Source of the DNA: Phaeobacter sp. HF9A
GTDB lineage: Bacteria; Pseudomonadota; Alphaproteobacteria; Rhodobacterales; Rhodobacteraceae
Length of the DNA stretch: 52,266 nt
Assembly: GCF_011806385.1 (NCBI RefSeq)
Contig: NZ_JAATOX010000016.1
Location: 1 to 52,266 of the forward strand
Reading direction: 5' to 3'
The notes under the pieces are model-generated. The model had not been told where the DNA came from and ran no database searches. It was given only the letters and a program-made list of their open reading frames with translations. The position numbers and the translations under genes were made by a program. Of this stretch, positions 8,919 through 25,432 are shown in pieces (position 1 is the first letter of the stretch; each line of letters starts with the position of its first letter).

Positions 8919-9136
8919 GATCTGAAGCGCTGTCAGGTCGCACCCAGGAACGAACGCGATAGCGTCCTGTGCATCTACGAGGGCGGTAACGCGGCGCTTA
9001 CTCCCGACGTACTAAACATATGAACGTCGGCTTTATCGGAGTTCGGGCCGTCGATCCGGGGCTGTATAAGCAGGCTCCTCGCAAAGGCAAGCGCGCAACC
9101 GCACTGTGCAAAGTTCGCGAGCACTGGGTCCTGCGC
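8919..9136. other. Boundary between phage remnant and matrix locus; no gene seen
   Basis: About the right half of this stretch holds nothing I can assign; the left half is the open upstream part of the primase frame. The outer attachment site of the remnant should lie near here, but no copy of the tRNA-Phe 3' end is visible. Confidence 0.5.
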
Positions 9137-9637
9137 CTAGGTGGGGAAATCGTAGTCGATCACGATTTTCCATATAGCACGATTGACGTCCTGGAGCGCG
9201 TCTATGGCATTTTCGATGCTGGTGATGGCTTGCTCGTCGACCTCTTCGGTCTGGCCGATCTTGAGCTTGTCCTTGCGATCCGCGATCCGCATCAGGATTG
9301 TGCGGGCGGTTCCTGCATCCTTGTCGAAGGAATAGATGCAGTGGCTGTAGCGATTGCGCAGCGCCGATTGGCGCATCATGTCGCGCGTCGCTGTGAGGAC
9401 CCGTTCCCGCAGGGCCGGGTCCACCCGCTCCAGCTTGACCAGACGCTCCACCAGTTCGACCCGCGCACGCGTGGTGTTGAGCGTCAGGAAAATTACCAGC
9501 GCGGCCTCTGTATCGGTGCCGCCGAGGCCTGCAATGAGATGGATAAGCAGGCTCTCGGTGTTGGTCCAAGTATAGTTCAGCCGCCCCACCAGCATCAAAA
9601 GCTGGGAAAAATGCGGGTCGCCCTCGCCGGGGGTCAC
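9137..9637 (-). CDS. HEPN-motif protein coupled to the LuxR regulator
   Basis: 166 residues, GTG start at 9637 that overlaps the stop of the LuxR gene (GTGA), so the two are translationally coupled. The protein is all-helical. It carries ALRNRYSHCIYSF at about residues 91-103, which matches the R-[ND]-x3-H signature of HEPN domains (catalytic in many toxin or RNA-cleaving HEPN proteins, but also found in non-catalytic ones). No membrane segment or signal peptide. Tight coupling to the regulator suggests that it modulates the same pathway, perhaps by RNA cleavage or by binding the regulator; neither is shown by sequence. I do not recognise a named family. Confidence 0.65.
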   Translation of the reverse strand: MTPGEGDPHFSQLLMLVGRLNYTWTNTESLLIHLIAGLGGTDTEAALVIFLTLNTTRARVELVERLVKLERVDPALRERVLTATRDMMRQSALRNRYSHCIYSFDKDAGTARTILMRIADRKDKLKIGQTEEVDEQAITSIENAIDALQDVNRAIWKIVIDYDFPT

Positions 9638-10293
9638 GCCAGACTTTGTCCCCGGCCCAGAAATACCCCTGCGGCTTCGGTCCGGTTACGCACTCCGAGT
9701 TTCTTGATGATATGATGCATGTGCAGCTTCACCGTATGTTCCGAGAGCTGGAGATCCACCGCGATCAGCTTGTTCTGCTTGCCGCTGGCGACCAATTCCA
9801 GAACCTCGCGTTCGCGGGGGGTCAATTGCGTGGTGGTCATGTTTGCGTGACTTTTGCGTTGGGCCGCGACGACGCTGCCTTGCCGTGTGAGAAACACCTG
9901 AGGCACGCAACATTGCCCGAGAAACAGCAGCCGGAGCATGTAGGTCCAGCAGTCATATTGCAGGTTCATTGGCAGGATCCCAAAGCGGTCTGGATCATTG
10001 TGGGAGGTGATCTGCTCAAGAAAGCGCAGCGCCAGGGTGTCATCGAGATAGGCCAGGGCGATATGATCCGCCGGGCATTGTTTCAGACTCTCCAAGCCTT
10101 CGCTGTCGGCATCGCTGAAGGCTTCCTGTTCGATGAGGGCCAGTTTGATCGGCCTCGGCGCGCAGGAGGTCAACGCTTCGACCGTCTCGACCCGGATGAT
10201 ATCAGTTCCTGGAAATTCTAGTTTAATCAACTCTTCGCATTTTGTTGAAACGGTCAAACCGTTTCCGATAATCGCAATACTAACAGTGGTCAT
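9634..10293 (-). CDS. LuxR/CsgD-like transcription regulator with degenerate receiver
   Basis: 219 residues from ATG 10293 (MTTVSIAIIGNG); a TTG 36 bases upstream is less likely. The N-terminal 130 residues look like a receiver fold, but at the usual phospho-Asp strand the sequence is IKLALIEQEAF, with Glu where Asp is expected. The C-terminus is a clear LuxR/NarL helix-turn-helix (TPREREVLELVASGKQNKLI, SEHTVKLHMHHIIKKLGV, RNRTEAAG). CsgD and VpsT, the matrix regulators of other bacteria, are also LuxR proteins with unusual receivers. It lies divergent to the secreted-protein / type I secretion operon and is the obvious candidate regulator. A perfect inverted repeat within its own 5' coding region may allow self-control. 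Confidence 0.88.
   Translation of the reverse strand: MTTVSIAIIGNGLTVSTKCEELIKLEFPGTDIIRVETVEALTSCAPRPIKLALIEQEAFSDADSEGLESLKQCPADHIALAYLDDTLALRFLEQITSHNDPDRFGILPMNLQYDCWTYMLRLLFLGQCCVPQVFLTRQGSVVAAQRKSHANMTTTQLTPREREVLELVASGKQNKLIAVDLQLSEHTVKLHMHHIIKKLGVRNRTEAAGVFLGRGQSLA
10247..10265. promoter_or_regulatory. Inverted repeat inside the 5' end of the LuxR gene
   Basis: GAAACGGT-CAA-ACCGTTTC is a perfect 8-bp inverted repeat with a 3-bp centre, 28 bp into the coding region. The symmetry and spacing fit a dimeric helix-turn-helix protein, so it is a candidate autoregulatory operator. It could also be chance. Confidence 0.35.
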
Positions 10294-10451
10294 TTGGAAG
10301 CCCCCAACTCGCACAAAAATCCTGGTCAACCTTTGACCGGCGCCCGGATGACAATCTTCCGGGCGATCACAAATTAAGCTATTCAGGCTATTCCCCTCGC
10401 TGAAATATTAACACTTTATTAAGCATTTCAGCAAGTTTGGATGTTGGAATT

Positions 10452-10476
10452 ATTAATTTCTAAAATTGAAATTAAT
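10452..10476. promoter_or_regulatory. AT-rich inverted repeat in the divergent promoter region
   Basis: ATTAATTTC-TAAAATT-GAAATTAAT, a perfect 9-bp inverted repeat inside the AT-rich block upstream of both the LuxR gene and the secretion operon. Candidate operator or silencer nucleation site. Confidence 0.4.
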
Positions 10477-10824
10477 GCTAAGAATTTGTTATTGTTTATA
10501 ATATCCGGCGTGTGAGTGTTTTTCAGCTTTGACATCTGTTCAACTGTCTGCGTTGCTCCCGCTTGATTGACATCACCCCGTGGTTGTGACAGCGCGGATG
10601 TAGGAAGAGGTGTATAGAATCACCTTTCGAATCAGGAAAAGATTTAGTCCCTCTGACCGTACCAGCAGGAATTTGATGAAGAATCAGCCCCTTGCTGGAA
10701 ACAGGATTGGTTGATCCATCTGCTAGCTGGCTCGGTTCCTGTCCCTGCTTCAGTCTGAGAGTGCGCCCCACAGGGTGCCCGGATCGAACCCCTCATTATT
10801 TTTCAGGTCGATCCGGCAAGATGA

Positions 10825-10841
10825 CGAGACCGAGGGTCTCG
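10825..10841. promoter_or_regulatory. Inverted repeat CGAGACC-GAG-GGTCTCG upstream of the secretion operon
   Basis: Perfect 7-bp arms with a 3-bp centre, 85 bp before the start codon at 10926. It could be an operator or a small leader hairpin. It is not followed by a T run. Confidence 0.35.
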
Positions 10842-10925
10842 CCAGAACCATCAAACGCCCGAATTTTAGTCGCTTTATAGATGACACGCGGCAGATCGGG
10901 CCTTCAGACAGAAGGAATTTGTATC

Positions 10926-12341
10926 ATGTCAGGTGGAAGAAATCCTCTTAACTTCTTTGCGCAGCTTCAGGGGCAGGGTCAGGACCAGCTCCAGGGGCAA
11001 GCCGAAGCTCAGGGTCAGGGACAAGGCCAGGACCAAGGTCAGGGTCAGGGTCAGGAACAATCGCAATCCAGCGAGAACCTGAACATGAATGGCAACGGGA
11101 ACCTGAACGGGAACCTGAGCATGAACGGCAACGGGAACGCCAACGGCAATTGGAACACCAATAGCGACAGCGACACCAACGCGAACAGCAATGCCAACAG
11201 CAACACGGATCGCAACTCCAACAGCAACAGCAATACTGACACCAACACCAATACCTCCAACAGCACGCATACCACCGATACGACGGTGGATGTGAAGGTG
11301 GACATCGGGCTTGAGGGCTATATGCCCGACGATGGTGATTTTGCCGATGTCGACATCTCTGGCGGTGCCAGCGTGGGCGATGTGCTGATGGCGCAGGGCG
11401 ATCTGCACTATGATATCGGCGATGATCTCAACGTTGAGAATGTGCTCAACAATGCGCTCAACGGCGAGGGTAACGACGTGGCAACCATCAATGTGATGGG
11501 CAACCACCTCAATGACAATGACACCCTGCACGACCCGGATGTGACCAACTCCGGCGGCACGTTCCAGAACAGCGGGAATGCATCCGGCGGGTCGGCGACC
11601 TCCGATGATGGGATCAACTCCGATGGCGGTTCGGGTTCTGCCGGTGGCGGTGCGACCTCGGCCGGTGGCGAAGGTCTTGGCGCGGCCTTTGGTGGCTGGG
11701 CTGACGGCGGCGAAACCGATGGCGGCGCTGGTGGCAACAACAGCGGCACGACCACTGCAGGTGACGGCGGCGATGCCGGGTCTCTGGCGGCCAATATCGG
11801 TGCAGGTGTCGGCCTTGCGGGCAGCGGCGCTGCTGCGGGGGCTGCTGCTGCGGAAGGCGGGCTTGACCTCGGTCTGCTCGATTTCCTCGAAGGCGGTGAT
11901 GCGGCCACTGCGATCGCGGCTGCCGGGTCTGCGGCCCAGGCTGGCGGCATTGGTATCGCGGGCGGCGCTTATTCCGGTGCGATGGCTGGCGATGGCGGTC
12001 ACGCCGGGACCTCTGGCATGGGCGGCTTTGGTGGCAGTGCCTTTAACGGCGGCACATCCGTTGGCCCAGCCAGCGCCTTCTCCACGGGTGGTGCTTCGGG
12101 CGACGCCTATGGCGGTGACGGCGGCGAAGGCGGCAGCGGTGGCGTCTGGGGTTCGCACAATGGCGATGACGGTTTCGTCAATGGGGCTTCCTCTGCCTCG
12201 GCCGATGCGATCCTCGACACCACGGCGTTCAACCAGTCCATCACCATGGGCGCCAACGTGCTGGGCAACACGGTCGATATGACCACTGTCGGCAACGACC
12301 TGACCTCCTCCTACGCACTGATCGGCGAAGACGACGCCTAA
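10926..12341 (+). CDS. Q/N/G-rich repetitive protein, probable type I secretion substrate
   Basis: 471 residues from ATG 10926 (site AGAAGG). After MSGGRNPLNFFAQ there is a low-complexity block: GQ/DQ repeats (about residues 14-48), then N-G/N-S/N-T repeats to about 115. A short acidic region with D and V follows, then a glycine- and alanine-rich half (about 200-440) and a more ordinary end (TAFNQSITMGANVLGN) finishing in acidic EDDA. No N-terminal signal peptide is visible, which fits export by the type I transporter encoded two genes downstream. Composition is prion- or amyloid-like and recalls surface matrix proteins; that function is inference. No RTX calcium nonapeptides are seen. The high glycine content could alternatively make an elastic or antifreeze-like polymer. 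Confidence 0.8.
   Translation: MSGGRNPLNFFAQLQGQGQDQLQGQAEAQGQGQGQDQGQGQGQEQSQSSENLNMNGNGNLNGNLSMNGNGNANGNWNTNSDSDTNANSNANSNTDRNSNSNSNTDTNTNTSNSTHTTDTTVDVKVDIGLEGYMPDDGDFADVDISGGASVGDVLMAQGDLHYDIGDDLNVENVLNNALNGEGNDVATINVMGNHLNDNDTLHDPDVTNSGGTFQNSGNASGGSATSDDGINSDGGSGSAGGGATSAGGEGLGAAFGGWADGGETDGGAGGNNSGTTTAGDGGDAGSLAANIGAGVGLAGSGAAAGAAAAEGGLDLGLLDFLEGGDAATAIAAAGSAAQAGGIGIAGGAYSGAMAGDGGHAGTSGMGGFGGSAFNGGTSVGPASAFSTGGASGDAYGGDGGEGGSGGVWGSHNGDDGFVNGASSASADAILDTTAFNQSITMGANVLGNTVDMTTVGNDLTSSYALIGEDDA
10970..11280 (+). repeat. Short-period coding repeats in the Q/N-rich region
   Basis: Two runs of degenerate 6-bp repeats: CAGGGT/CAGGAC-type (about 10970-11065, coding Q-G/Q-D) and AACGGC/AACAGC-type (about 11085-11270, coding N-G/N-S/N-T). 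Such tracts are prone to length change by slippage, which would vary protein length between strains without breaking the frame. Confidence 0.7.
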
Positions 12342-12351
12342 ACGATCAACA

Positions 12352-12403
12352 CTGCGGTAATCCCACCGCAGAGAAACCTGACATGCGCGGCTCCCGCGCA
12401 TGT
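12352..12403 (+). promoter_or_regulatory. Two tandem hairpins between the two secreted-protein genes
   Basis: Hairpin 1 is CTGCGGT-AATCCC-ACCGCAG (12352-12371); hairpin 2 is ACATGCGCGG-CTC-CCGCGCATGT (12381-12403), a perfect 10-bp stem. Neither has a T run. They lie just after the first gene and before the second, as expected of RNA processing or partial termination that makes the upstream matrix protein more abundant than the downstream genes. Confidence 0.55.
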
Positions 12404-12447
12404 CTCTTATCTCGCCAGATTTGGTGGCAGAGAGTGGTATTGTTCCA

Positions 12448-14562
12448 ATGTTACTCGATAAAACAACAGAAACGATTTCATATTTTATCGGTCTTTTTCA
12501 GCTTGTTACGGAAACAGCGCGCGGACGACTGGAGTACGATAGTTTCAAATCCTTTCAGCAGGCGTCAAAGCTTGATCCCCTGCTGTTGCCGGGCTCCCAC
12601 CGTACGGTCAGCTTTGGCCCGGAGGGGCATGATCCGGCGGTAAGCGACCCGCAATCCTTTGTGCAAAAGGCGGCGATGGCCCCGCTGGTGGCGCCCAATA
12701 TGCCGCCGCATTTGGCGCAACAGATCCTGCCTCCTGCGGTTGCGGAGCCTGCGCCGCAGGCGGTGGTCTGGGCGGCCGCACAGGACGCGCCACCGGTGCA
12801 TATTCGGGAGCTGCCGCCACCCGGTGGCACCATGCATGTCACCTGGCAGGAAAACCGGCTGTCAGATTGCGACACGCTGCATCTCGACCCGGAGATCAGC
12901 GCCGCCTGGGGGGCGATGCAGGCTGAGGGAATGCTGGCGCTCAAGGCGGCAGTTGCGGGGCTTCAGATCCTGGACCTACAGAATGGCGCCGCATTTCTGG
13001 ACATGACCGCCGCCGAGACCAAGCTGCTGACACAGGATCTTGCCGAGCGCTTTGACGGAACGGCGGACGCGAGGCCGGGGGCCAGCGTCTATCTGGCGAC
13101 AGGCACGGCGACGCAGCAGATCACGGTGAACGGGGTCGCGGTGGAGGAAATGCCCGATTGGACCGAGGTGCTGCCGGATGTGCCGCAGCTTTCTGATTGG
13201 CAGGTGCAAGGCGTCACCACGCAGGGTATCGCGCATCCCGGCACCTCTCATGCGGGAGGCGCTGTCGTGGGCGTGGCTGACCACGAGGGGGCGTCTCCCG
13301 ACGAGGCGGGCACCGACGCAGAGGCCGCGGACATCGGGGCGGCGCATGTGCTGATCACCGGCGGCAATCTGGCGATCAATTCCATGGCGGAAGGCACAGG
13401 AGGTGTCGACGCGCCGGTGATCGGCGTGGCGGGCGACGTGGTCAGCCTTGATGTCATCAGTCAGATCAACGTGTTGGGTGGGACCGCTGCCGGCACAGCG
13501 GGCAGTAGCCTGCTCCAGAACAGCGCCGCCTTTTCGGGGCTGCCTTTGCTGGCGGGGCAGGAGGGCGCGGATCAGACCTCTGGCCCGAGCAGCGCTGGCG
13601 CGGGGCCGCTGCCCGGTCTCTTGGCGCTGTCCACCCTAGACGGGGATCTGGTCAACTTCAGCTGGACCCGGCAAATCAACGCCGGTGTCGATGACGACGC
13701 GGTGCAGATCACCACCTCCGCGACACAGAGCTGGATCGACCTTGGCGGCAATACGCTTCTGAATGTGGACTCCCTGTTTGGTCAGGCGATGGGCTTCGAC
13801 CTCATCCTTGTCGGCGGCAATATGATCTCGCAATATATTGTCGAGCAGATCAATGTGCTGATGGACTGGGATAGTATCCTGGAGGGCAGCCCGGATGGGC
13901 TGAACGCAGATCTGTTCTCGGCACAGGACATGGTCAGCGGAGCGGGAGAGACCTCTGATAGCACCGCTGGCAATGCGCTGATCAACTCGGCCTCGATCAC
14001 CCATACGGCGCTTGATCACTTCCACACGCTGACGGCGGAGTTCCAATCGGTGCTTGGCAGCTTTGCGGAGGGCGCCCCCGATGTGTTGCCCCTGATCGGC
14101 AGCGGCGCGCTGCAATCGCAGCCCGTGCTCAGCATTCTCTATATCACCGGCGATCTGATTGATGTGCATCTGTTGAGCCAGGTCAACAGCCTGTCCGACA
14201 GCGATCTTGTGCTCGGCGCGACGGAAGACGCGCCCGCGACAGAGATCCACAGCGGGCTGAACGCGTTGGTGAACGACGCGCAGATGATCGACATCGGCAT
14301 GGCCTCGAATGTGTTTGCAGGCGGCGAGGTCTACTCCGACGCCGTGCTCCACCAGGCCAATCTGATCAGCGAGGACGCGCCGCCCTGGGATGTGTTTCTG
14401 GCACCCGGCGGGATCGACGGTTTGGCCAGCGAGGCGGTGGCCTTCCTGGCTGACGACATGATGTCACCCGCCAGCAGTGCAGCGGATCTGGCAACCGGGG
14501 ACAACTCAATAGCACAGGACGGGCCCATCCACGTGGATGTGATGCAAACCATGCTCGCCTGA
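12448..14562 (+). CDS. Large repeat protein of the matrix locus
   Basis: 704 residues from the ATG at 12448 (GAGAG upstream); an in-frame ATG at 12400 lies inside a strong hairpin and is less likely. The first 200 residues are proline- and alanine-rich with no signal peptide. The C-terminal half contains five copies of a motif G-[DNE]-x9-Q-x-N, exactly spaced: GDVVSLDVISQIN, GDLVNFSWTRQIN, GNMISQYIVEQIN, GDLIDVHLLSQVN and GEVYSDAVLHQAN (near 13433, 13641, 13816, 14151 and 14323). Between them recur short NxLxNxA-type strings (AGNALINSASI, GLNALVNDAQMI). This suggests a repetitive beta fold. The protein ends hydrophobically (VDVMQTMLA), as many type I substrates do. No known family recognised. 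Probably exported by the downstream transporter, as adhesin or matrix partner. Confidence 0.75.
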   Translation: MLLDKTTETISYFIGLFQLVTETARGRLEYDSFKSFQQASKLDPLLLPGSHRTVSFGPEGHDPAVSDPQSFVQKAAMAPLVAPNMPPHLAQQILPPAVAEPAPQAVVWAAAQDAPPVHIRELPPPGGTMHVTWQENRLSDCDTLHLDPEISAAWGAMQAEGMLALKAAVAGLQILDLQNGAAFLDMTAAETKLLTQDLAERFDGTADARPGASVYLATGTATQQITVNGVAVEEMPDWTEVLPDVPQLSDWQVQGVTTQGIAHPGTSHAGGAVVGVADHEGASPDEAGTDAEAADIGAAHVLITGGNLAINSMAEGTGGVDAPVIGVAGDVVSLDVISQINVLGGTAAGTAGSSLLQNSAAFSGLPLLAGQEGADQTSGPSSAGAGPLPGLLALSTLDGDLVNFSWTRQINAGVDDDAVQITTSATQSWIDLGGNTLLNVDSLFGQAMGFDLILVGGNMISQYIVEQINVLMDWDSILEGSPDGLNADLFSAQDMVSGAGETSDSTAGNALINSASITHTALDHFHTLTAEFQSVLGSFAEGAPDVLPLIGSGALQSQPVLSILYITGDLIDVHLLSQVNSLSDSDLVLGATEDAPATEIHSGLNALVNDAQMIDIGMASNVFAGGEVYSDAVLHQANLISEDAPPWDVFLAPGGIDGLASEAVAFLADDMMSPASSAADLATGDNSIAQDGPIHVDVMQTMLA

Positions 14563-14590
14563 GAACAACAGGGGACGAACGGGGGGAAAC

Positions 14591-16927
14591 GTGAAAGTAT
14601 TCAGAAACAGCGGCGCAGCCGAAGCCAAGGTCTGCGCGTCATTGCCCGAAATGCAAGAGTGGCAGGCCAAGGCCATGTCCTCGTTGAGCAAGTCGAGGGA
14701 AACCGGGCCACTTCAGCCTGAGGAAGAGACCCCATCCCCGGATGATATTCCGATGCCGCTGAAACTGCGTGCGTCATGGAAGCTCAAGGAAGAGGCCAGG
14801 GCCAGGGCGCAGGATGCGGCCGCAAGGCAAGCCTCGGATGAAGGCGCCAACCTTGCCGGTACCAAACACGCCGCAGCGCGCGTGGACCCATCCGCCCCGT
14901 CACAGCAGGATACGCCCGAGACACCGCTGTCGCAGGAGCCGCCCAAGACCGAGCTGCCCAAGACTGAGCCGCCCAAGACTGAGGCCCGCAAGACAGAGGA
15001 GAGCCGCACATCAGAGGAGGCGCGGATGGACCCGATGGTCAAAGGGCTCGGCACCCCTCCCATCGAGGCGCGCAACACCGCGACCAGCCCCACCACCCGC
15101 AGCGGGGGACCGCAACCGCCAAGCGGCGGTGGCACCGGGAACGGCGGAGGCGGCAATGGCAATGGCAATACCCGTTTCCACCGGCGGCTCGGGCCGCAGA
15201 ATTTCGAAAAAAGCCTGCGCGAGGGGGTGGCCGCGGTCCGTCGCAATATGGGTTTCGTGATGCTGATGACCTGCGCCACCAATATTCTGGTTTTGGCGAT
15301 CCCGATCTACCTGTTTCAGATTTCCGACCGGGTGCTGACGAGCCGGTCCGTGGATACGCTGATCATGCTGACCATGGTGATCGCCGGCGCGGTGATCCTG
15401 CAATCGCTCTTTGACGCTGTGCGCCGCTTCATGTTGATGCGCACCGCAGTCGAGGTGGCCGCCCGCCTTGGCGCGCCGATCCTGAGCGCCGCGGCGCATG
15501 CTTCGCTGCATAGCAATGGGCGCGAATATCAGGCGTTGGGGGATCTGCAACAGGTGCGCAGTTTCCTGACCTCCGGCACGTTGATGGCCTTTCTCGACGT
15601 GCCCTTTGCGCCCATCTTCTTGCTGGCTATCTTTCTCGTACATCCCCACCTGGGGTTTATCGTCGTGACAACCGCAATTGTTCTGTTGGTGATTGCCCTG
15701 GTCAATCAACGGTTTACGGCGAAGCCCTTCGCGCAGGCCAATCAGGCCCAGTCCCGGGCCAACCTGCATCTCGACTCCATGACCCGCAACAGCCAGATCA
15801 TCAACGCCTTGGCGATGATCCCCGAAGCGGTGACCATCTGGGGGCGGGATACCGCAGCCTCACTCACGGCTCAGGTCTGCGCGCAGGATCGCAATGTTAT
15901 TTCCGCGACATTTTCGCGCGGCGTGCGGTTGCTGACCCAGGTGGGGATGCTCGGTTGGGGGGCCTATCTGGCCATCGAGGGCGAGATCACCGGCGGTATG
16001 GTGATTGCCGCCTCGATCATCGCAGGCCGGGCCCTGGCACCGGTCGAGGGGGCGATCGAGGGCTGGAATGCCTTTTTGCTGTCCCGCGCCGCCTACGGGC
16101 GGATCGCGCATCTCCTGACCCGATCCGGGTTTCAGTTCGAGCGGCTGTGGCTGCCGCAGCCCGAAGGCCGGCTGGATGTGGAGCGGCTGCTCTATGTGCC
16201 GGGCGGCACCAAGCAGGTTGTGCTCAATGCGCTCAGCTTCTCGCTGGATCCGGGCGACACGCTGGCGGTTATCGGCAATTCCGGTGCGGGGAAAACCACG
16301 CTGGGCAAGATGCTGGTGGGGTCGATCATGCCGACTTCGGGCAATGTGCGGCTGGATCTGATGGATCTGCGCAACTGGGATCCGCGCCAGCTGGGCGAGA
16401 ACATCGGCTATCTGCCGCAGGACGTGCAGCTGTTTCCCGGCTCAATCAAGGACAACATCGCCCGGATGCGCATGGACGCCACCGACGAGCAAATCCACCG
16501 CGCCGCGATGCTGGCGGATGTGCACGATATGATCGCCTCGCTGCCGCAGGGCTATGAAACCATGGTTTCCGCCGATGGCTCGCCGTTGTCAGGCGGCCAG
16601 AAACAGCGTGTCGCCCTGGCGCGGGCCTTCTTTGGTGATCCGCGCCTCTTGGTGCTGGACGAGCCGAACTCCAACCTCGATGTGGCGGGCGACAAGGCGC
16701 TGGCGCGGGCGATCGACCACGCCCGGCGCAACAAAATCACGGTGGTGGTGATCACCCAGAAACCCACTCTGCTAAGCGCGGTGGACAAGATCATGCTGCT
16801 GGCCGGTGGTAATGTCGCAATGATCGGTGCACGCGATACCATATTGAAACAACTTGCAAATCATCAGCAAGGCCAGGCGCCGGGAGCCACTGGCGGCCCG
16901 ACACCCAACGGGGGGACGCTGACATGA
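14591..16927 (+). CDS. Type I secretion ABC transporter with long disordered N-terminus
   Basis: 778 residues, GTG start. Residues 1 to about 210 are a hydrophilic Pro/Lys/Glu/Thr-rich extension with PKTELPKTEPPKTE-like repeats and a glycine-rich stretch. This is absent from the usual 560-600-residue PrtD/HlyB-like transporters. The membrane domain follows (about 220-480), then the ATPase: Walker A GNSGAGKTTLG (about 561), signature LSGGQKQRVALARA (about 665), Walker B LLVLDEPNSNLD (about 687). LDEPNSNLD is typical of the PrtD/RzcB branch, which exports proteases, surface-layer and matrix proteins. No peptidase C39 domain. It overlaps the adaptor gene by 4 bp. Probable cargo: the two proteins encoded directly upstream. 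Confidence 0.93.
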   Translation: MKVFRNSGAAEAKVCASLPEMQEWQAKAMSSLSKSRETGPLQPEEETPSPDDIPMPLKLRASWKLKEEARARAQDAAARQASDEGANLAGTKHAAARVDPSAPSQQDTPETPLSQEPPKTELPKTEPPKTEARKTEESRTSEEARMDPMVKGLGTPPIEARNTATSPTTRSGGPQPPSGGGTGNGGGGNGNGNTRFHRRLGPQNFEKSLREGVAAVRRNMGFVMLMTCATNILVLAIPIYLFQISDRVLTSRSVDTLIMLTMVIAGAVILQSLFDAVRRFMLMRTAVEVAARLGAPILSAAAHASLHSNGREYQALGDLQQVRSFLTSGTLMAFLDVPFAPIFLLAIFLVHPHLGFIVVTTAIVLLVIALVNQRFTAKPFAQANQAQSRANLHLDSMTRNSQIINALAMIPEAVTIWGRDTAASLTAQVCAQDRNVISATFSRGVRLLTQVGMLGWGAYLAIEGEITGGMVIAASIIAGRALAPVEGAIEGWNAFLLSRAAYGRIAHLLTRSGFQFERLWLPQPEGRLDVERLLYVPGGTKQVVLNALSFSLDPGDTLAVIGNSGAGKTTLGKMLVGSIMPTSGNVRLDLMDLRNWDPRQLGENIGYLPQDVQLFPGSIKDNIARMRMDATDEQIHRAAMLADVHDMIASLPQGYETMVSADGSPLSGGQKQRVALARAFFGDPRLLVLDEPNSNLDVAGDKALARAIDHARRNKITVVVITQKPTLLSAVDKIMLLAGGNVAMIGARDTILKQLANHQQGQAPGATGGPTPNGGTLT

Positions 16928-18258: not shown

Positions 18259-18294
18259 AAAAAGGGGGGGAGGGGGCGCAACCCCTCTCCCCCC
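18258..18294. terminator. Terminator between the secretion operon and the DUF995 gene
   Basis: A run of seven A, then GGGGGGGAGGGGG paired through a short loop (CGCAAC) with CCCTCTCCCCCC. The A run becomes a T run on the minus strand, so it is a classical terminator for the leftward DUF995 gene; the stem may also stop the rightward operon. Confidence 0.7.
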
Positions 18295-18320
18295 GGTGAT
18301 CGCGGACCCGGGCGGCGGCG

Positions 18321-18830: not shown

Positions 18831-19038
18831 TAACATTCCTCCAAACCTGCGCCTGTATAGGTGAGTGTTGGAACGCACTATTGATGGCTGCGCGGCGGCA
18901 CCCCCATGCCATTGCCGCGGCAGAACCTGCTCCGTTCTGCATCAATTTTCCCTGGGCCCGCCCATGGGACATCCGGCCGGAAAAAGGGCCAGTTTGTCAG
19001 CCTGTGCTGTCTAGAAAGACTGCCATAAATACACAATC

Positions 19039-19088
19039 AAGGCAACTCTAACAGTTTGAAAACACTGTAATTGCCTCGATTAATATCG
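19039..19088 (-). promoter_or_regulatory. Imperfect inverted repeat plus TAATATCGG box upstream of DUF995
   Basis: AAGGCAACTCTAACAGT faces ACTGTAATTGCCTC across a short AT-rich centre, followed by GATTAATATCGGGG. The same combination (a GCCTCGA-containing inverted repeat next to TAATATCGG) recurs at 20420-20460. Read on the minus strand both begin CCGATATTA, so they look like shared promoter elements of two leftward transcripts. Confidence 0.45.
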
Positions 19089-19094
19089 GGGTGA

Positions 19095-20084
19095 TCAACG
19101 TAGGGCCGACAGCCGTGGTCCGCGTTCGGACAGCGCCTTGAGATAGGCCGCACCGATTGGCGTGGGGGTCAGGCGATCATCGACCAGATTGATCTGCGGC
19201 ACCCGGCCCTGCCAGCTGTAGGGATTGGCGGCAAACCAGGCGTAGCGCTCCACGAAGGGCAGGCGGTCCAGCATGCGAATGGCGTCTTTCGCAAAGCGTG
19301 CATTGGCCGCATAGCGGGCCTGCTGCGGTCGGCGCCAGTCGATATAGGCGAATTCGGTGACCCAGATCGGACGGCGGTAGGTCTGATGGCCCTCGGTCAG
19401 CCAGCGGCGAAAGGCGTCGATGTCGCCATCGCTGGAGTAATAATGCACCGCCATAAAATCCACCCGCAGGCCGCGCGCCTCGGCCTGTGTCATGAAACGA
19501 TGCTGCCAGGATTTTGGCCCCAGCGTTTGCGCCTGGGTGGTGGCCGGACTGCCAAGCCGCAACCCGCGCGCCTCCAGCCTGGGCCAGAGTTTTATGGCGC
19601 GTTCAACACTAAGGGCGGATTGATGGCTGCCGCTCTGGCCGTCCGGTTCGTTGAACCCCAGCAAGGCCCGCGCCCGACCGTCCATATTGATCGGGTCATT
19701 CACATTTTCTGCGCCATGGATCATCGGCACAAATTCAACGGCCCGTTTTTGCCGGGTCGGAGTCCAGAGCTGATCCATGCGCCAGTTATAGTACCAACCG
19801 AGCCCGGGCTGTGACTCTATCCAGCCGAGCATGGAATAATCCGCGTTTTCCCAGGCCCCGACGCCAGCGTGCTGCGCATGCAGCGGCCGGCTGCTTAGGA
19901 GGAGGGCGAGACCAAGACAGAGCAGCCAAAGCCCTTGGGTCAGGAGTTCCTTCCCCCAAGCCACAGACGCCACCCGGCATTCATCGACACTGCGCAAATT
20001 TCTCACGTCCCGTTCCGACGGCAACCGATCTGGGCTCAGTTGGCGTGACAGCGCGAGCGCTGTCCAAAACCAGCCGCCGAGCAA
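19095..20084 (-). CDS. GH128-like glycoside hydrolase, exported
   Basis: Up to 329 residues. The start is uncertain: the longest frame begins at a TTG inside the upstream gene, and GTG codons near 19970 are alternatives that would place the hydrophobic segment LWLLCLGLALLLSSRPLHA as a normal signal peptide. The mature domain contains ALLGFNEPDGQSGS, with the probable acid/base Glu (146), and IWVTEFAYIDW, with the probable nucleophile (244). These are hallmarks of the Glyco_hydro_cc / GH128 fold, known as beta-1,3-glucanases. Other conserved pieces are GWYYNW, FVPMIHG and VHYYSSDGDID. Likely trims or remodels a glucan made by the glycosyltransferase of this locus. Confidence 0.83.
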   Translation of the reverse strand: MLGGWFWTALALSRQLSPDRLPSERDVRNLRSVDECRVASVAWGKELLTQGLWLLCLGLALLLSSRPLHAQHAGVGAWENADYSMLGWIESQPGLGWYYNWRMDQLWTPTRQKRAVEFVPMIHGAENVNDPINMDGRARALLGFNEPDGQSGSHQSALSVERAIKLWPRLEARGLRLGSPATTQAQTLGPKSWQHRFMTQAEARGLRVDFMAVHYYSSDGDIDAFRRWLTEGHQTYRRPIWVTEFAYIDWRRPQQARYAANARFAKDAIRMLDRLPFVERYAWFAANPYSWQGRVPQINLVDDRLTPTPIGAAYLKALSERGPRLSALR

Positions 20085-20335
20085 ACATAGCTGCCGGATC
20101 CGATGCGGCGGGCGCTGCGGATGGTCTGGTTGGTCTTGACTGTCGGTTTGCGCAGCAGGTTCAGATCGCCCTTGGGCAGGCGAATTTGTTGCTGTGATCG
20201 GGTGGGTTGATCCCCAGATCCGGCCTGCGCCGGAACCGGCGCGGTTGCGACAAAAAGGGAAAGGAGAAGAGCCGCCAGCGGCAAAAAGGTCGCCGTCAGG
20301 CGCGGTCCGGCGAAGAACCTCGCGATAATCGTCAT
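20036..20335 (-). CDS. Small exported cysteine-containing protein
   Basis: 99 residues from ATG 20335 (site AGAGGCAG). A clear signal peptide (LPLAALLLSLFVATAPVPAQ, cut near residue 38) leads to a 60-residue basic mature chain. This ends in SGSYVCSAAGFGQRSRCHAN, two cysteines ten residues apart, probably a disulfide. I have seen this C-terminal pattern in small hypothetical proteins of Rhodobacteraceae but know no function. It overlaps the 5' end of the GH128-like gene as drawn, so the two are probably co-transcribed. Confidence 0.7.
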   Translation of the reverse strand: MTIIARFFAGPRLTATFLPLAALLLSLFVATAPVPAQAGSGDQPTRSQQQIRLPKGDLNLLRKPTVKTNQTIRSARRIGSGSYVCSAAGFGQRSRCHAN

Positions 20336-20419
20336 GTCACTGCCTCTTGCGCCCCGTTTGGGGGCTGTTTTACTGCGTTCAAGGATCGAGCCCTGCGCGG
20401 AAGCTAACAAAACAGGCAA

Positions 20420-20460
20420 GCCTCGACAAAACCATTGTCGAGGCGACCGCCTAATATCGG
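20420..20460 (-). promoter_or_regulatory. Perfect inverted repeat plus TAATATCGG box
   Basis: GCCTCGACAA-AACCA-TTGTCGAGGC is a perfect 10-bp inverted repeat, followed by GACCGCCTAATATCGG. It lies 85 bp upstream of the small exported protein gene and resembles the element at 19039-19088. Confidence 0.5.
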
Positions 20461-20540
20461 ATTAATTGAATTTTCGAGCCAACCGGGCCCCGCCCGCCGT
20501 TGCCCCGCGCGCCTGGTCATACGTTCGCTAAAGATCTGAA

Positions 20541-20570
20541 ACAAAACGACCCGCGAGGAGGCGGGCCGCT
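20541..20570 (-). terminator. Terminator of the leftward polysaccharide operon
   Basis: On the minus strand GGCCCGC-CTCCTC-GCGGGTC is followed by GTTTTGTTT. It lies 65 bp after the stop of the GH26-like gene and separates the operon from the small exported protein gene. Confidence 0.8.
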
Positions 20571-20634
20571 ACAGGTTCAGGCGGGCGAGGGGATCTGCGG
20601 ATTCTTGCCGATACCCCTCGGAAATAGGCCGGAA

Positions 20635-21567
20635 TCAGTCCTGCAACAGGGCTTGGCGCGGCTCCAGCGTGTTCTGCGGGAACTGCCAATCCGGCAGACC
20701 AAAGCCGTCAGGCCAGGGGTAGACCTCTTTTTGGTTGAAGTAGACAACCGCCTGCAAGGCCTCATAGGCGTCGAGGTTCTGACGCACCGCCGCGTTCCAG
20801 CTGGCGACATAATCGGCATCGCCGATATAGCCGAGCTCCGCCACCACGATGGGCAGGCCAAACGCCCGCACGCGGTCATAGCGCGGCTCAAAGATATCCA
20901 GAAACCCCTGCGCCTCGCCCAGGATCTGTTCTTCCCAGGCTTGCAGGCCAAAGACGGATATGCCGATCACATCCACATAATCCTCGCCCGGGAAGTAATC
21001 GGCCAGCGTCTCATAGCCGAGCGGAGACCACATATAGTCGATGTCGTCGGCGACCGTGCGGCAGGTCTCTACCACCCTGCGATAGGCGGCGATATAGGTT
21101 TCGGGCTGCCAGTCGGCCCAGATGAACTGCCCGGAGGCATCCTCCATTTCCTGCGCCCAGCGGATGGTGACTGGCGAGGAAAACTCCGAGAGAATGGAGC
21201 AGATTTCGCGTATGTTGGCATCATATTCTCCGCCAAAGATCCCCTCGATCAGCGCCGCCGGGGTGTTGCGCTGATCGCGGCTCCAGGTCCAGGGTTCGAT
21301 GGTCACAAGGATCGACCGGCCCCGTTCCAGCGCATAGTCATCTGCGGCGGTCAGCGAAGGCAGGTAGACATCCTCCCAGGGGAGGAAAAGATGTTCGATC
21401 TGCACATCCGGGTCATCGGTGAAGCCGCCATTGGGATCATAGACGCCAAAGGGCATGGTGCCGGGCGGGGCCGCCTGCACCGCCGGGGATGCCAGCACGA
21501 ACAAGGGCATAACGGCCATTGCCAGCAAGCAAAGGCGCCGGGAAATACTGTGCAATAGCAGTGTCAT
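20635..21567 (-). CDS. GH26-like glycoside hydrolase, exported
   Basis: 310 residues from ATG 21567 (GGAGGA site); the stop codon of the glycosyltransferase lies 2 bp upstream. N-terminal signal peptide (LCLLAMAVMPLFVLASPAVQ, cleaved near AAPPG). The catalytic barrel shows PFGVYDPNGGF, ILVTIEPWTW, VTIRWAQEME (probable acid/base Glu 140) and LPIVVAELGY (probable nucleophile Glu 244), the layout of GH26 beta-mannanase/lichenase-like enzymes often paired with polysaccharide synthases. Similar periplasmic hydrolases clear mis-secreted chains or set chain length. Exact substrate is unknown; GH26 itself is a by-eye call. Confidence 0.82.
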   Translation of the reverse strand: MTLLLHSISRRLCLLAMAVMPLFVLASPAVQAAPPGTMPFGVYDPNGGFTDDPDVQIEHLFLPWEDVYLPSLTAADDYALERGRSILVTIEPWTWSRDQRNTPAALIEGIFGGEYDANIREICSILSEFSSPVTIRWAQEMEDASGQFIWADWQPETYIAAYRRVVETCRTVADDIDYMWSPLGYETLADYFPGEDYVDVIGISVFGLQAWEEQILGEAQGFLDIFEPRYDRVRAFGLPIVVAELGYIGDADYVASWNAAVRQNLDAYEALQAVVYFNQKEVYPWPDGFGLPDWQFPQNTLEPRQALLQD

Positions 21568-21568
21568 A

Positions 21569-23410
21569 TCAGTCCTCCAGAGGTCTCGATGATTGTTGTT
21601 CGTTCCAATGCGGATCAAACAACAGAATGGTTTTTCCGGCGCCGCCCATGCCCGCGCCCGCAACGGCATATTGCTCTTTGAAGAGGGCATAGGGGTCCAG
21701 GCCGAGCGACAGGGCATAGCTGCTCTCAAGGCCGCGATGGCCGATGGCGAACAGCAGGATACAGGCAAGAAGGCCGGGTAGCGCCAGCTTGCCCGCATCG
21801 CTCAGGGTGAGGCTGGCCGCCGCGGGCGCAGTGTGACGATAGTGATCGACCACCGTGACTGCGACGACGATAGCATAAAGCAGCCCGTTTATCGCGCAGA
21901 GAATGTAAAAACCCTGGGCATTTTGCAGGTCATCGACCAGCAGGACAGGCAGCAGGCAGCCAAGCGCAAGCGCGCCATAGACCGCAAGGATCCGTCCCGG
22001 CAGGCTGGCCTTGGCGGCTTCGCCCTTGGGGGTGATACGGAAGTCCACAAACCCGCCCGCCAGCCTGTCGCGCACGGCCATCAGGCAGCCCCAGAGCACC
22101 CAGGGCCATTGCAGCACCAGAAACAGCGCCTTTTCCCAGGCTATCACGCGCGCCTCCGCCGGGCGCATATAGCCGTCGGATCTGATCATATAAATCAAGG
22201 CGGTCAGCGCGATCCCCTGCGGCAGAAGATGCCCGATAAAGGCGGGGAAGGTGACATTGGCATAGCGGATGTCAAACAGCAGCGCCGCAATCGGCATCAG
22301 GTAAAAGAGCAGCATAAAACCCGCGATGAGCGGATAGAGCATCTGGCAAAACAGGAACAGGAATTTCAGCCTGAGCGGCAATCGGGCCAGATAGGCGGGC
22401 GTATATTGCAGCAAGAGCGTCACCAGGCTGCGCGACCATTGAAACTCCTGGGTGCAGAGGTCGGCGATATTGGCAGGCCCGTCGCCATAGGCAATGGCGT
22501 TGAAGGCGTGCACCCCGCGCCAGCCGCCCGCATTCATCAAGAGCGTGGTGGAGTGATCCTCGGCCAGTTCCGGGCCAAGCCCGCCCACCGAACGCAGGGC
22601 GCGGGTGCGCACCGCGTAATGGGAGCCGATGCACATTGGCGTCAGCGTCGCCGCGTATCCCGCCTGAAAAACACCGTGAAACACCGCTTCGGTATAGAGG
22701 CGGCTGCGCGCGGCCCAGCTTTGCCCGGCATTTCTGGCGCAGATGCTGGGGGCGCTGACATAGCCGACCTTCGGGTCGGCAAAGCCACGCATGATCTCTT
22801 GCAGATAGTCGGGCCCGGGCACGTGATCGGCGTCGAGCTGGGACACCACGTCATAGTGATCATAGCCAAAATGGTCGTAGAAAAACGCCAGGTTGCCCTC
22901 CTTGCAGCGGGTGCGGCGGGGCCAGCTCTTGCGGTGGTACTCGGGCTGGTTCTGGCGGGTGGAGATCTGTACCCCATGGGCGGCGCACCATTTGCGGGTC
23001 GCCTCATCCGGGGCCTCATCGGCGAGCCATGTGTCATGCGGGTAGCTCTGGCGCAGCATCGCCTGCAAGGTCGGGATTAGCACCGACAGGGGTTCGGATG
23101 GCGTCTTGGTCACGATCATGGCCACCCGCATGTGCTGCGGGTCCGGCGGCGCGGCGGCGGGAATGCGGGCGCGCGGGAAGATCACCATAAAGAAGGCCTG
23201 CAAGAACAGCAGCCATGCCAGCGCGAGGCTCGCAACCCAATATTGCGCACCGGCCTCCGCATGTGCGGGCCGCAGCCACCAGGCCCAGAAATAGACCACG
23301 CTGAGCAGCCACAGGAGGCTCAAGGCCCGGTTGCGCCAGCGTTGGGCGGGCGACCAGAGCGGACGCAGCGTATCGCCGGGCACTGGCATATGGGGCTCAG
23401 GCCGCGGCAT
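21569..23410 (-). CDS. Membrane family-2 glycosyltransferase, cellulose-synthase-like
   Basis: 613 residues, overlaps galE by 14 bp. Two N-terminal membrane helices (about 30-47 and 57-78) precede a cytosolic GT-A domain with SQLDADHVPGP (DxD at 193-195) and GPELAEDHSTT (the ED base, about 284). In place of the usual Q-x-x-R-W motif it has QEFQW (321-325), where Gln stands at the Arg position. Several C-terminal helices follow (about 340-600). The architecture is that of BcsA and of mixed-linkage or beta-1,3-glucan synthases, which polymerise and extrude the chain through the inner membrane. No PilZ domain is seen, unlike BcsA. The product is therefore probably a beta-glucan or related hexose polymer, not necessarily cellulose. 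Confidence 0.87.
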   Translation of the reverse strand: MPRPEPHMPVPGDTLRPLWSPAQRWRNRALSLLWLLSVVYFWAWWLRPAHAEAGAQYWVASLALAWLLFLQAFFMVIFPRARIPAAAPPDPQHMRVAMIVTKTPSEPLSVLIPTLQAMLRQSYPHDTWLADEAPDEATRKWCAAHGVQISTRQNQPEYHRKSWPRRTRCKEGNLAFFYDHFGYDHYDVVSQLDADHVPGPDYLQEIMRGFADPKVGYVSAPSICARNAGQSWAARSRLYTEAVFHGVFQAGYAATLTPMCIGSHYAVRTRALRSVGGLGPELAEDHSTTLLMNAGGWRGVHAFNAIAYGDGPANIADLCTQEFQWSRSLVTLLLQYTPAYLARLPLRLKFLFLFCQMLYPLIAGFMLLFYLMPIAALLFDIRYANVTFPAFIGHLLPQGIALTALIYMIRSDGYMRPAEARVIAWEKALFLVLQWPWVLWGCLMAVRDRLAGGFVDFRITPKGEAAKASLPGRILAVYGALALGCLLPVLLVDDLQNAQGFYILCAINGLLYAIVVAVTVVDHYRHTAPAAASLTLSDAGKLALPGLLACILLFAIGHRGLESSYALSLGLDPYALFKEQYAVAGAGMGGAGKTILLFDPHWNEQQSSRPLED

Positions 23411-24392
23411 GTTCGATGACCTTCAGTCCGAATGTGGGCGCGGCATGGCGTAGGATTGTCTTGAGTTCGGAATGGCGCGGTTGAAACCCAAGCAAGCGCT
23501 GGGCCCGGCTGGTATCGGCCACCAGCATCGGCGGATCGCCAGCACGTCGCGCGGCGGGGCTCCAGGCCGGGGTGCGGCCTGTCACCTCGGGAATGGCGCT
23601 TAGGATCTCCAGGATCGAATAGCCGATCCCGGTGCCGAGGTTCACGGTCAGATTCTCATGCCCCGCCATCAGCCATTGCACCGCCTGCACATGCGCCTCG
23701 GCCAGATCGCTGACATGGATATAGTCGCGCACGCAGGTGCCATCCGGCGTGTCATAATCGGTGCCAAAAACCCGCAAGGGGTTGCCGCGCCCGGTGGCCG
23801 CCAGTAGTGCCAGCGGGATCAGATGGGTCTCGGGGCGGTGGCGTTCGCTCAGCTCGCCCTCCGGGTCGGCGCCACAGGCGTTGAAATAGCGCAGCATCGC
23901 AAAACGCAGGCCAGTGGCCCGGGCGATGTCCTGGATCATTTGCTCGCAGATCAGTTTGGTGCGGCCATAGGGGTTGATCGGCTGTTGCGGCGTTGTCTCC
24001 CGGATCGGCTGGAGCGCCGGAATGCCATAGGTTGCACAGCTGGAGGAAAAGACGATCCGGTGAACCCCGGCGAGCCTCATCGCGGTCAGCAGCGACAGGG
24101 TGCCGGCGACGTTGTTGTCATAGTAAAAGCCGGGTTTTTGCACCGACTCGCCGACATAGGCGGCGGCGGCAAAATGCATCACCATCTCCACCTGGTGCCG
24201 CTTCAGGATCGCGGCGACAGCGGCGCGGTTGCGAATGTCTGCGGTCTCCAGCGGTCCCCATTTGACCGCATCGCGGTGGCCGGTGGTCAGATTGTCCAGG
24301 GTCACCGGCAGATATCCCGCCGCCGCCAGCGCTTTGCAGGCATGGCTGCCGATAAAGCCGGCGCCGCCGGTGACAAGGACGACGGGTCTCAT
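23397..24392 (-). CDS. galE: UDP-glucose 4-epimerase
   Basis: 331 residues, extended SDR fold. NAD-binding [17 protein letters not shown] at the start, the FSSSCATYG serine region, the catalytic YGRTK (Tyr-x3-Lys), [13 protein letters not shown] and the GalE-specific [11 protein letters not shown]. It interconverts UDP-glucose and UDP-galactose. The gene overlaps the decarboxylase gene by 4 bp upstream and the glycosyltransferase gene by 14 bp downstream, so it is part of one operon and probably supplies UDP-galactose to the polymer. Some members of this family also act on UDP-xylose/arabinose; with a UDP-xylose synthase next door that activity should be considered. Confidence 0.93.
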
Positions 24393-25432
24393 ACCACCAC
24401 CTTCGCGTCTTGGGGCGCATTGCGGCGCAGTTCGGAGGCGAAATAGGAAATCGTTTGCCGCAGCCCATCGGCCAGTTTGACCTTGGGGCGCCAGCCGAGT
24501 TCGCGCATGGCAACCGAAATATCGGGGCGCCGTTGTTGCGGATCATCCTGCGGCAGCGGCCGGTAGCATAGAGGAGACCGCGAGCCGGTCAGCGCCAGCA
24601 CCTGCGTGGCGAGCTCAGCAATGGTGAATTCGCCGGGGTTGCCGATATTGACCGGCGCGGCCAGGTCCTTCTTGCAGTGCATCAGCGCCAGTAACCCCTC
24701 GACCAGATCGTCGCGATAGCAGAACGAGCGGGTTTGCGCTCCGCGTCCGTAAATGGTGATCGGCACTCCTTTGAGCGCCTGGGTGACGAAATTCGACACC
24801 ACTCGCCCGTCCAGCGGATCCATGCCCGGACCATAGGTGTTGAAGATACGTGCGATGCGGATATCGACCCCGCGCGCGAGGTGGTAATCGTGGAACAGCG
24901 TTTCCGCCGCGCGTTTGCCCTCGTCATAGCAAGAGCGTGGACCAACGGTATTGACGTTGCCCAGGTAGCTTTCGCATTGCGGGCTGACGCTGGGATCGCC
25001 GTAGACCTCCGAAGTCGAGGCCTGAAGGATCCGGGCCTTATGCTGGCCGGCGAGATCCAGCAGGTTGATGGCCCCGGTGACGCAGGTCAGCATGGTGTGG
25101 ATCGGATCAATCTGATAGCGCGGCGGCGAGGCCGGGCAGGCCATATTGTAGATCAGCGACACCGGCCCGGGCAGGGTGATCGGCAGGACCACGTCATGGC
25201 GAAAAAAGCGGAATTGCGGCAGATCCAGAAGATGAGAAATATTGGACAGCCGCCCGGTGGACAGATTGTCCAGGCAATAAACGCAATAACCCTTTTCAAT
25301 ATAACGCTCGCAAATCCGAGCCCCGAGAAACCCTGCGCCACCGGCGACCAGGACGGTATTGCGGCGATGATAAACAGGCGTGTCTTTTTGTCCTAAGTGA
25401 CGACCTTCTGACACAGATAGAAATTGATTCAC
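24389..25432 (-). CDS. UDP-glucuronate decarboxylase (UDP-xylose synthase)
   Basis: 347 residues as drawn from a GTG at 25432 without a ribosome site; a second GTG near 25414 is possible. NAD motif [18 protein letters not shown], the UXS signature [28 protein letters not shown] and the catalytic [11 protein letters not shown], then [20 protein letters not shown]. It converts UDP-glucuronate to UDP-xylose. As first gene of the operon it indicates that the polymer or a decoration contains a pentose such as xylose, or arabinose if epimerised. Overlaps galE by 4 bp. Confidence 0.9.

Follow-up and report, generated by a model that had tools for sequence, protein, structure and literature searches.

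The thirteen genes at 9137-25432 of contig NZ_JAATOX010000016.1 from Phaeobacter sp. HF9A (the window, 52,266 nucleotides of a 4.27-Mb draft assembly) place a LuxR-type regulator, two repetitive proteins and a type I exporter directly beside genes for the production of a polysaccharide. This raises the question whether one locus builds a mixed protein-polysaccharide matrix, as a sequence-only reading had proposed, or whether separate systems are neighbors. The comparative analysis presented here found that observation to be largely right and the block to consist of two conserved modules rather than one. With a probability of roughly 0.6, a self-contained secretion module (module A) lies adjacent to an operon of the arabinose-containing polysaccharide (APS) type (module B), and the two are not visibly co-regulated in this genome. 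The parts that most deserve to be followed up are the apparently undescribed secretion module, an RNA hairpin in the leader of its gene Rep1 and a HEPN-like protein, for which a mechanism is inferred from conservation and anatomy.

Two convergent gene modules

All thirteen genes of the earlier inventory are open reading frames (ORFs) of the window, and family searches back most of their names (Table 1), including the DUF995, GH128-like and GH26-like labels and the PrtD-type ABC/HlyD pair, of which both members exceed the curated cut-offs. The genes form two convergent groups. Module A (9137-18258) consists of the HEPN-like and LuxR genes, divergent from Rep1, Rep2, the PrtD-type ABC exporter and HlyD, and module B (18321-25432) contains the seven remaining genes. 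The terminator-like hairpin between the modules is not among the sites obtained by the consensus hairpin scan.

Table 1. Features of modules A and B and of their intergenic regions, with positions in the window
Feature	Position	Strand	Basis
HEPN-like protein, 166 aa, invariant R94-N95-x3-H99	9137-9637	-	alignments, AlphaFold
LuxR/NarL-type regulator	9634-10329	-	GerE E 4.5e-21
Candidate regulator site, imperfect palindrome	10710-10729	+	16.7 bits
Conserved RNA leader hairpin	10866-10897	+	covariation, covariance-model matches, genome searches
Second, small hairpin with a Shine-Dalgarno-like AGAAGG	10901-10915	+	hairpin scan; minimum-energy fold of 10846-10935
Rep1, G/A/N/D-rich low-complexity protein, presumed secreted	10926-12341	+	no Pfam/NCBIfam match; conserved C-terminal domain
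Perfect 11-bp-stem hairpin between Rep1 and Rep2	12380-12404	+	hairpin scan
Rep2, repetitive beta protein, presumed secreted	12400-14562	+	alignment; AlphaFold
PrtD-type ABC exporter with N-terminal extension	14591-16927	+	TIGR01842 694 bits, cut-off 510
HlyD-type membrane fusion protein	16924-18258	+	TIGR01843 368 bits, cut-off 208.65
Terminator-like hairpin and U-run, for the minus-strand operon	18256-18296	-	read from sequence; fold -35.5 kcal/mol, z -2.65
DUF995 protein (ApsH-like)	18321-18878	-	PF06191 E 5.9e-12; 28.6% over 63 aa to ApsH2
GH128-type hydrolase, probably exported	19095-20084	-	PF11790 E 4.2e-48; absent from S. meliloti operon
Small protein, probably exported	20036-20419	-	no Pfam match; similar ORFs beside several aps operons
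GH26-type hydrolase (ApsE-like)	20635-21567	-	PF02156 E 8.9e-6; 48.7% over 265 aa to ApsE
GT2 polysaccharide synthase (ApsS-like)	21569-23410	-	55% over 572 aa to ApsS
UDP-sugar 4-epimerase (Uxe-like; galE in most annotations)	23397-24392	-	60% over 323 aa to S. meliloti Uxe
UDP-glucuronate decarboxylase/UDP-xylose synthase (UXS, Uxs1-like)	24389-25432	-	63% over 320 aa to S. meliloti Uxs1

Conservation of the secretion module

Rep2 is present in 17 of the 149 family genomes, that of strain HF9A among them, and the order HEPN-like gene, LuxR, divergent Rep1, Rep2, ABC and HlyD is kept in all 16 other family loci, counting locus L026, in which a contig end cuts off ABC and HlyD. In the genus, Rep2 was found in 10 of 18 genomes and all six module A genes in each of the nine loci read, so that the order is conserved in 25 of 25 family and genus loci (one cut at the contig end). 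An alignment scan of a genome collection yielded 442 HEPN-like coding stretches among 492 candidates, and the loci of the best 80 of these 442 relatives were analyzed (the collection loci, seven of which overlap with the family and genus set). They belong to Rhodobacterales and Hyphomicrobiales, plus one Geminicoccaceae bin. All six genes are found in 66 of the 80 loci, 63 of them in the standard order and strands; the other 14 loci are incomplete, many at contig or fetch ends, and L137 and L153 are without a LuxR match. Three six-gene loci fall outside the standard order: LuxR and the HEPN-like gene lie behind HlyD on the same strand in L112, the best LuxR match is located elsewhere in L138, and the deviation of L104 is a difference in ORF calling that disappears on direct reading.

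A plasmid collection provided 32 records with a Rep2 match, and the HEPN-like gene was detected in all nine further Rep2 loci read from it. In four plasmid loci (S. meliloti Ak57, Shinella, Ciceribacter and Sinorhizobium K101), it follows HlyD and not LuxR; the Rhizobiaceae loci in which it ends the secretion operon are L178, L195, L197 and L199. This position after HlyD suggests that the HEPN-like gene goes with the secretion module and not with LuxR. Neither module A nor the leader hairpin was found described in the open-access literature, and module A is apparently a widely conserved, undescribed secretion module.

A conserved RNA hairpin in the Rep1 leader

Approximately 50 nt before the Rep1 start, the leader holds a hairpin with a 6-bp stem and a 13-14-nt loop with an AUGA-type core. 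LuxR-Rep1 intergenic regions were collected from 93 loci (84 non-redundant regions), and sequences for a covariation analysis were picked by the letters of the 5' arm and the loop only, blind to the 3' arm. This selection matched 40 of the 93 regions, and 38 sequences were used after two near-duplicates were dropped and one evident false match was kept. The stem cells were paired in 86.8% (76.7% in shuffles) and 41 cells were changed on both sides (14.0 in shuffles); none of 500 shuffles reached either value. Controls in which the stem was slid along the alignment gave at most 64.5% pairing and at most 15 cells changed on both sides. The weak points are the outermost stem pair, which is unpaired in 22 of the 38 sequences, and two weaker covariation measures, which were reached by 67 and 7 of the 500 shuffles. 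An earlier hairpin survey was excluded from these counts because its sites had been chosen by pairing, and a second count was made on an alignment fitted to the covariance model. The covariation shows that the leader hairpin is conserved as an RNA structure.

A covariance model of 36 sequences was run over 100 loci (1.9 Mb) and returned 54 matches with E <1, all at the Rep1 leader by position; the match in L104 lies approximately 310 nt into an ORF that was called too long, and that in L149 stands without a called Rep1. Loci outside the model contributed 23 of the 54 matches, two of them near-copies of model members. With a second model and 76 other sources, several of which duplicate earlier ones, 34 matches with E <1 were obtained, 33 of them at or near the leader (L157 at a distance of approximately 400 nt from the start as called); the remaining match, in L074, lies elsewhere. 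Taken together, the two models placed a leader match with E <1 in 65 of the 80 collection loci. Genome searches, in which 150 first-look candidates out of 832-2088 were scored in each genome, identified the leader as the best match in the HF9A genome (E 0.026, next 1.45) and as the only match with E <0.1 in 19 of 20 further genomes, with none in Mesorhizobium amorphae; 18 of the 20 searched genomes had supplied sequences to the model. Inspection by eye suggested that the leaders of Shinella, Ciceribacter, Ensifer and Neorhizobium have a similar loop and different stems. A search of window positions 8000-27000 with Rfam 15 gave four matches, all below the gathering score and none at 10866-10897.

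The HEPN-like protein and the LuxR regulator

The residues R94, N95 and H99 of the HEPN-like protein are invariant in alignments of 26 and 46 sequences, and the AlphaFold model (mean pLDDT 85) is mostly helical. The motif of the HEPN superfamily is Rx4-6H. The invariant RNxxxH meets this pattern and presumably resembles that of HEPN RNases, with which the protein would also share a mostly helical predicted structure. The motif named in the sequence-only reading stands, and membership in the superfamily is weighed below.

The LuxR protein has a strongly conserved helix-turn-helix (HTH) and a weakly conserved N-terminal half (99 sequences). In this layout, and in its place beside presumed matrix genes, it resembles the CsgD/VpsT-type regulators; it differs in that the CsgD model gives it 52.8 bits, far short of the cut-off of 250, and the NarL model a higher score of 62.7 bits (likewise below its own cut-off). 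The regulator initially described as a CsgD-like switch is thus retained as a LuxR-type protein with a GerE domain, and the CsgD assignment is not. Two PADLOC models with a CARF label match it as well (E 3e-9 and 7e-9), their best stretches lying over the HTH end.

A motif of approximately CTARNCC-N-TTTG-NN-YAGCT (information 15.8 bits) was learned from the 84 non-redundant LuxR-Rep1 regions, which include that of the window and share ancestry. Its log-likelihood was 368, compared to 72-119 in random controls; these controls were Markov-sampled and run with 3 of 8 seeds and fewer iterations, and from the three seeds concerned the real data reached 359, 178 and 174. The occupancy of 98% equals the ceiling set by the method. 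The over-represented word CTTTCGG partly overlaps the motif. The copy of the motif in the window would be the binding site of LuxR.

Rep1, Rep2 and their probable exporter

Rep1 probably starts at 10926, which would give an acidic protein of 471 aa (57 D/E, 3 K/R) with low-complexity stretches and no cysteine. The called ORFs of its uncut orthologs range from 440 to 1632 aa, with uncertain starts and leaving out L111 and L149, where the call failed, and the cut L127. The C-terminal 60 aa or so are conserved with a mean column identity of 65% (41 of 76 available sequences aligned). The true start of Rep2 is probably at about 12448, as judged from ortholog ends and overlaps. No Pfam family was matched by more than one of 62 Rep2 members (best E 0.013), and a curlin match was not among the Pfam results. 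The motif Q-x-[NF]-x3-D-x-D occurs 2.37 times per Rep2 protein versus 0.02 in shuffled sequences, and G-x-N-x3-N 3.23 versus 0.13 times. The AlphaFold model of Rep2 (mean pLDDT 74.9) contains long repeated strands between residues 316 and 657, where ten-residue pLDDT means are mostly above 80 but fall to 51-64 around 361-400 and 501-520. Its strand table suggests a repetitive beta structure, probably a beta-solenoid. These repeats, together with low-complexity tandem repeats in Rep1, bear out the original description of both proteins as repetitive. The C-terminus of Rep1 aligns with one Rep2 repeat (profile match, probability 61.5), and both proteins therefore probably assemble outside the cell.

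The exporter resembles PrtD/HlyD type I secretion systems in both subunits and differs from them in its linked presumed substrates. RTX substrates were rejected, as GGxGxDxUx nonapeptide repeats are absent from Rep1 and Rep2 of the window; among orthologs they were detected in 0 of 77 Rep2 and 7 of 78 Rep1 proteins, each with a single match. A curlin amyloid was likewise rejected, with 0 copies per protein of the repeat SxxxxxQxGxxNxAxxxQ in the Rep1 and Rep2 sets. With the solenoid amyloids (CsgA/CsgB of curli, FapC) the system shares a pair of repeat proteins, a predicted repetitive beta structure and an insignificant Foldseek list that is headed by FapC and includes CsgA; the insignificant Rep2 scores, the missing curlin pattern and the linked type I exporter set it apart. 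The ABC gene starts with an extra repetitive stretch (14591-15170) of 15-bp tandem repeats. Most called ABC orthologs (21 of 24) are 657-740 aa long, and those of L039, L063 and L066 are longer than the protein of the window. A possible role of the inverted repeat at 12380-12404 is to restrict read-through or the translation of Rep2.

Module B resembles the APS operon of S. meliloti

A published account describes the S. meliloti operon as uxs1-uxe-apsS-apsH1-apsE-apsH2 and its product as a Congo-red-binding arabinose-containing polysaccharide that is enhanced by c-di-GMP (PMC7902896). The pSymB genes used for the comparison were equated with this operon by gene content. Module B shares with it the order uxs-uxe-apsS-apsE on one strand (63, 60, 55 and 49% identity) and a DUF995 partner, with one such gene in the window and two in S. 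meliloti. It differs by the addition of the GH128-type hydrolase and the small protein and by the absence of an AraC-type gene (CuxR) among the neighbors scanned; the next genes past UXS encode a class III aminotransferase and a patatin, where S. meliloti has the AraC gene. The GH26 gene probably starts at 21567, after the GT2 stop, as indicated by ortholog ends and overlaps.

This resemblance changes the assignment of several genes. The operon had been taken for a glucan-synthase operon, which is unlikely because its genes match the APS operon. The BcsA-like glycosyltransferase is indeed a GT2 enzyme, with a cellulose-synthase similarity below the cut-off, and appears by homology to be an APS-type synthase. 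The ApsS-type synthase keeps AEDHS and QEFQW in each of the 31 aligned matches, as it does LDADH or a close variant of it. The canonical synthase motif is QxxRW, in whose place these enzymes have QEFQW. UXS and GalE are both epimerase-family proteins; the latter corresponds to uxe, the second gene of the S. meliloti operon, rather than to galE. We take S. meliloti Uxe to be a UDP-xylose 4-epimerase. By homology, module B would make an APS-type, pentose-containing polysaccharide.

Linkage of the two modules

ApsS was searched (E up to 1e-60) in the 79 genomes of the 80 collection loci and served as the marker of module B. It was not found in 58 of these genomes, all of which contain the HEPN-like gene. 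This distribution would fit Rep1 and Rep2 being a different kind of secreted surface protein (an adhesin, a surface layer or an ice- or host-binding protein) with an incidental link to the polysaccharide, as would the lack of a match to any matrix-protein family by Rep1 or Rep2 and the presence of the adhesin SRRP and an ice-binding protein among the insignificant Foldseek neighbors of Rep2. The recurrent linkage with an extracellular polysaccharide operon and the motif shared with it, both described below, argue against this explanation, which is considered rather unlikely.

In the 21 genomes with ApsS, module B is adjacent to module A in 10, on another contig or far apart in 10, and undecidable in one (L127, short contigs). 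The adjacent copies lie behind the HEPN-like gene in eight loci (L112, L119, L121, L126, L157, L159, L162 and L163) and behind HlyD on the same strand in two (L135 and L147). In Pseudorhodobacter antarcticus (L112:1575-16800), Rep1, Rep2, ABC, HlyD, LuxR, HEPN-like, UXS, GalE, GT2 and GH26 genes follow one another on one strand. The window represents a third arrangement, with a convergent module B behind HlyD. The 13-20 kb read at the 16 other family loci showed none of the seven module B genes. In the four other family genomes with both halves, these lie about 745 kb from each other or on separate contigs; in the two nearest relatives (G159 and G160), they are on different contigs. Co-occurrence, uncorrected for kinship, was found in the genus (18 genomes: 9 with both, 1 with only A, 0 with only B, 8 with neither; Fisher p 2e-4) and in the family (149 genomes: A in 17, B in 14, both in 5; p 0.011, or 0.036 without the HF9A genome). 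The synteny of the whole block thus showed both outcomes, with the halves adjacent in some relatives and unlinked in others.

The regulator motif was then scored upstream of UXS in 35 regions that had not been used in learning. All nine regions with the order LuxR-HEPN-UXS-GalE-GT2 reached at least 13.2 bits, with the motif in the gap that separates UXS from the stop of the HEPN-like gene; the 26 other regions stayed at or below 9.5 bits. Random stretches of the same locus matched the nine positive scores in 2-7% of draws, a weak point that is possibly explained by draws hitting the Rep1 promoter site of that locus. A further weak point is that three of the 26 other regions had p 0.04 and one 0.02, at 7.4-9.5 bits. 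A narrower pattern was derived directly from the HEPN-UXS sites and identified 11 sites in 17 genomes: seven in the HEPN-UXS gap, two at the Rep1 promoter, one elsewhere and one behind the HEPN-like gene of a Litoreibacter without ApsS found. Nine genomes had no site, and a backward control gave one. The Litoreibacter ascidiaceicola copy (L123:10518) looks like the scar of a lost operon. In one arrangement both promoters have the motif in common, which suggests a protein-polysaccharide matrix shared by the two modules. Ensifer sp. LC11 has a LuxR homolog (32%) directly upstream of an unlinked UXS (L194:3890-4540) and showed no LuxR match next to its module A.

These results bear on the proposal that the 16-kb locus of HF9A builds one mixed matrix under a LuxR switch. 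The adjacency of the halves in several arrangements and various genera, the window included, speaks for it, as do the co-occurrence in the genus and the motif at both promoters in nine of nine scored loci of one arrangement. Against it stand the convergent halves with a terminator-like hairpin between them, the separate contigs of the nearest relatives and the lack of the motif upstream of UXS in the window. The leader hairpin was also rejected as a common control of both halves: it gave no match with E <1 at the aps loci examined (L077-L089, 13 loci; L181, L182, L187-L190, L192 and L193). A single locus is accordingly judged unlikely here. What stands of it is the coupling, which is real in some relatives and makes a protein-polysaccharide connection plausible for the group; shared control of A and B in this genome is unsupported.

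The modules could also be neighbors in the window by chance rearrangement, with the linked relatives reflecting one old event spread by descent and replicon transfer. In a quick tree of the ABC proteins, which does not include L157, nine rows of the first and two of the second arrangement fall into one supported clade with nine others, and the window groups in another with relatives whose module B is elsewhere or not found. This topology and the location of some copies on plasmids favor such a history. It is nevertheless regarded as improbable, as the arrangements differ and one has the motif at both promoters. The reading preferred here remains that of two adjacent, self-contained modules.

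Left of module A, a tRNA-Phe, tyrosine-integrase-like ORFs (by eye) and a phage capsid plus prohead protease gene at 4651-8031 look like a prophage remnant or integrated element. Transposase-like ORFs (by eye) are located at 211-2633, at the left end of the contig.

Proposed mechanism

LuxR would bind the palindrome-like site in the divergent region and switch on one transcript, encoding two acidic non-RTX proteins, the PrtD-type ABC exporter and the HlyD adaptor. The exporter most likely secretes Rep1 and Rep2. Outside the cell, the flexible, low-complexity Rep1 and Rep2 would probably assemble as a surface fibre or matrix protein. The leader hairpin most likely controls Rep1 translation or mRNA stability, and the HEPN-like protein, with its RNase-type RNxxxH and as a constant companion of the module, is the best candidate for acting on it. 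Module B would add the APS-type polysaccharide. Several Rhodobacterales genera keep A and B together, and in one arrangement the motif is common to both promoters. We tentatively propose, as a possibility with the odds against it, that a dedicated HEPN-like protein reads or cuts one conserved mRNA hairpin, apparently with no second strong copy in the genome, and thereby sets how much of a two-protein solenoid fibre is made for type I secretion in Rhodobacterales and Hyphomicrobiales, and that in some lineages the LuxR site also precedes the APS-type operon. A role of the HEPN-like/LuxR pair in defence or as a toxin-antitoxin unit that happens to sit next to the exporter is very unlikely: the 4-bp overlap of the two ORFs, the CARF-labelled matches of LuxR and the presumed resemblance to HEPN RNases would fit, but the HEPN-like gene keeps company with the exporter (it follows HlyD in four loci), and its protein matches no PADLOC model and touches a single HEPN Pfam model (Cas_Csm6_HEPN, one of 46 members, E 0.14).

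Besides the many genomes without module B, several observations weigh against the readings favored here. The HEPN-like protein differs from HEPN-domain RNases in having no significant Pfam, PADLOC, PDB or Foldseek match (best Foldseek E against the PDB 0.044, none <0.001), and its putative HEPN identity is suggested by one feature, the invariant RNxxxH. Fifteen of the 80 collection loci, two of which lack Rep1, gave no leader match with E <1 by either model. Two S. meliloti-type and two Paracoccus leaders show no hairpin by eye despite the HEPN-like gene, which weakens a strict pairing of hairpin and protein. The Foldseek search with Rep2 returned nothing significant, with FapC first (E 0.095, probability 0.04) and CsgA at E 7, and the secretion of Rep1 and Rep2 by the linked exporter is read from that linkage. 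The UXS upstream region of the window has a best score of 8.3 bits, a value reached by 7% of random window stretches, and L185 and L186, with module B behind HlyD on the same strand, score 3.5 and 2.4 bits there. One publication on Tritonibacter (PMC12082827) was set aside as not relevant because the filaments it describes are made by the alga.

Implications

Rhodobacterales are major marine surface colonizers, and Hyphomicrobiales include rhizobia; to our knowledge, little is known of the matrix proteins of either order. Module A is common, as the number of HEPN-like coding stretches in one genome collection illustrates, and its presumed substrates are uncharacterized. The analysis defines a regulator whose candidate binding motif can be read and a new cis-acting RNA element, for which a protein partner is proposed, and it places APS-type operons in Rhodobacterales. 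It also offers a connection that can be tested between the protein half and the polysaccharide half of a biofilm matrix. If the proposed mechanism is true, module A would represent a one-target RNA switch for the secretion of a matrix protein, and fibre and polysaccharide would be made together in some lineages.

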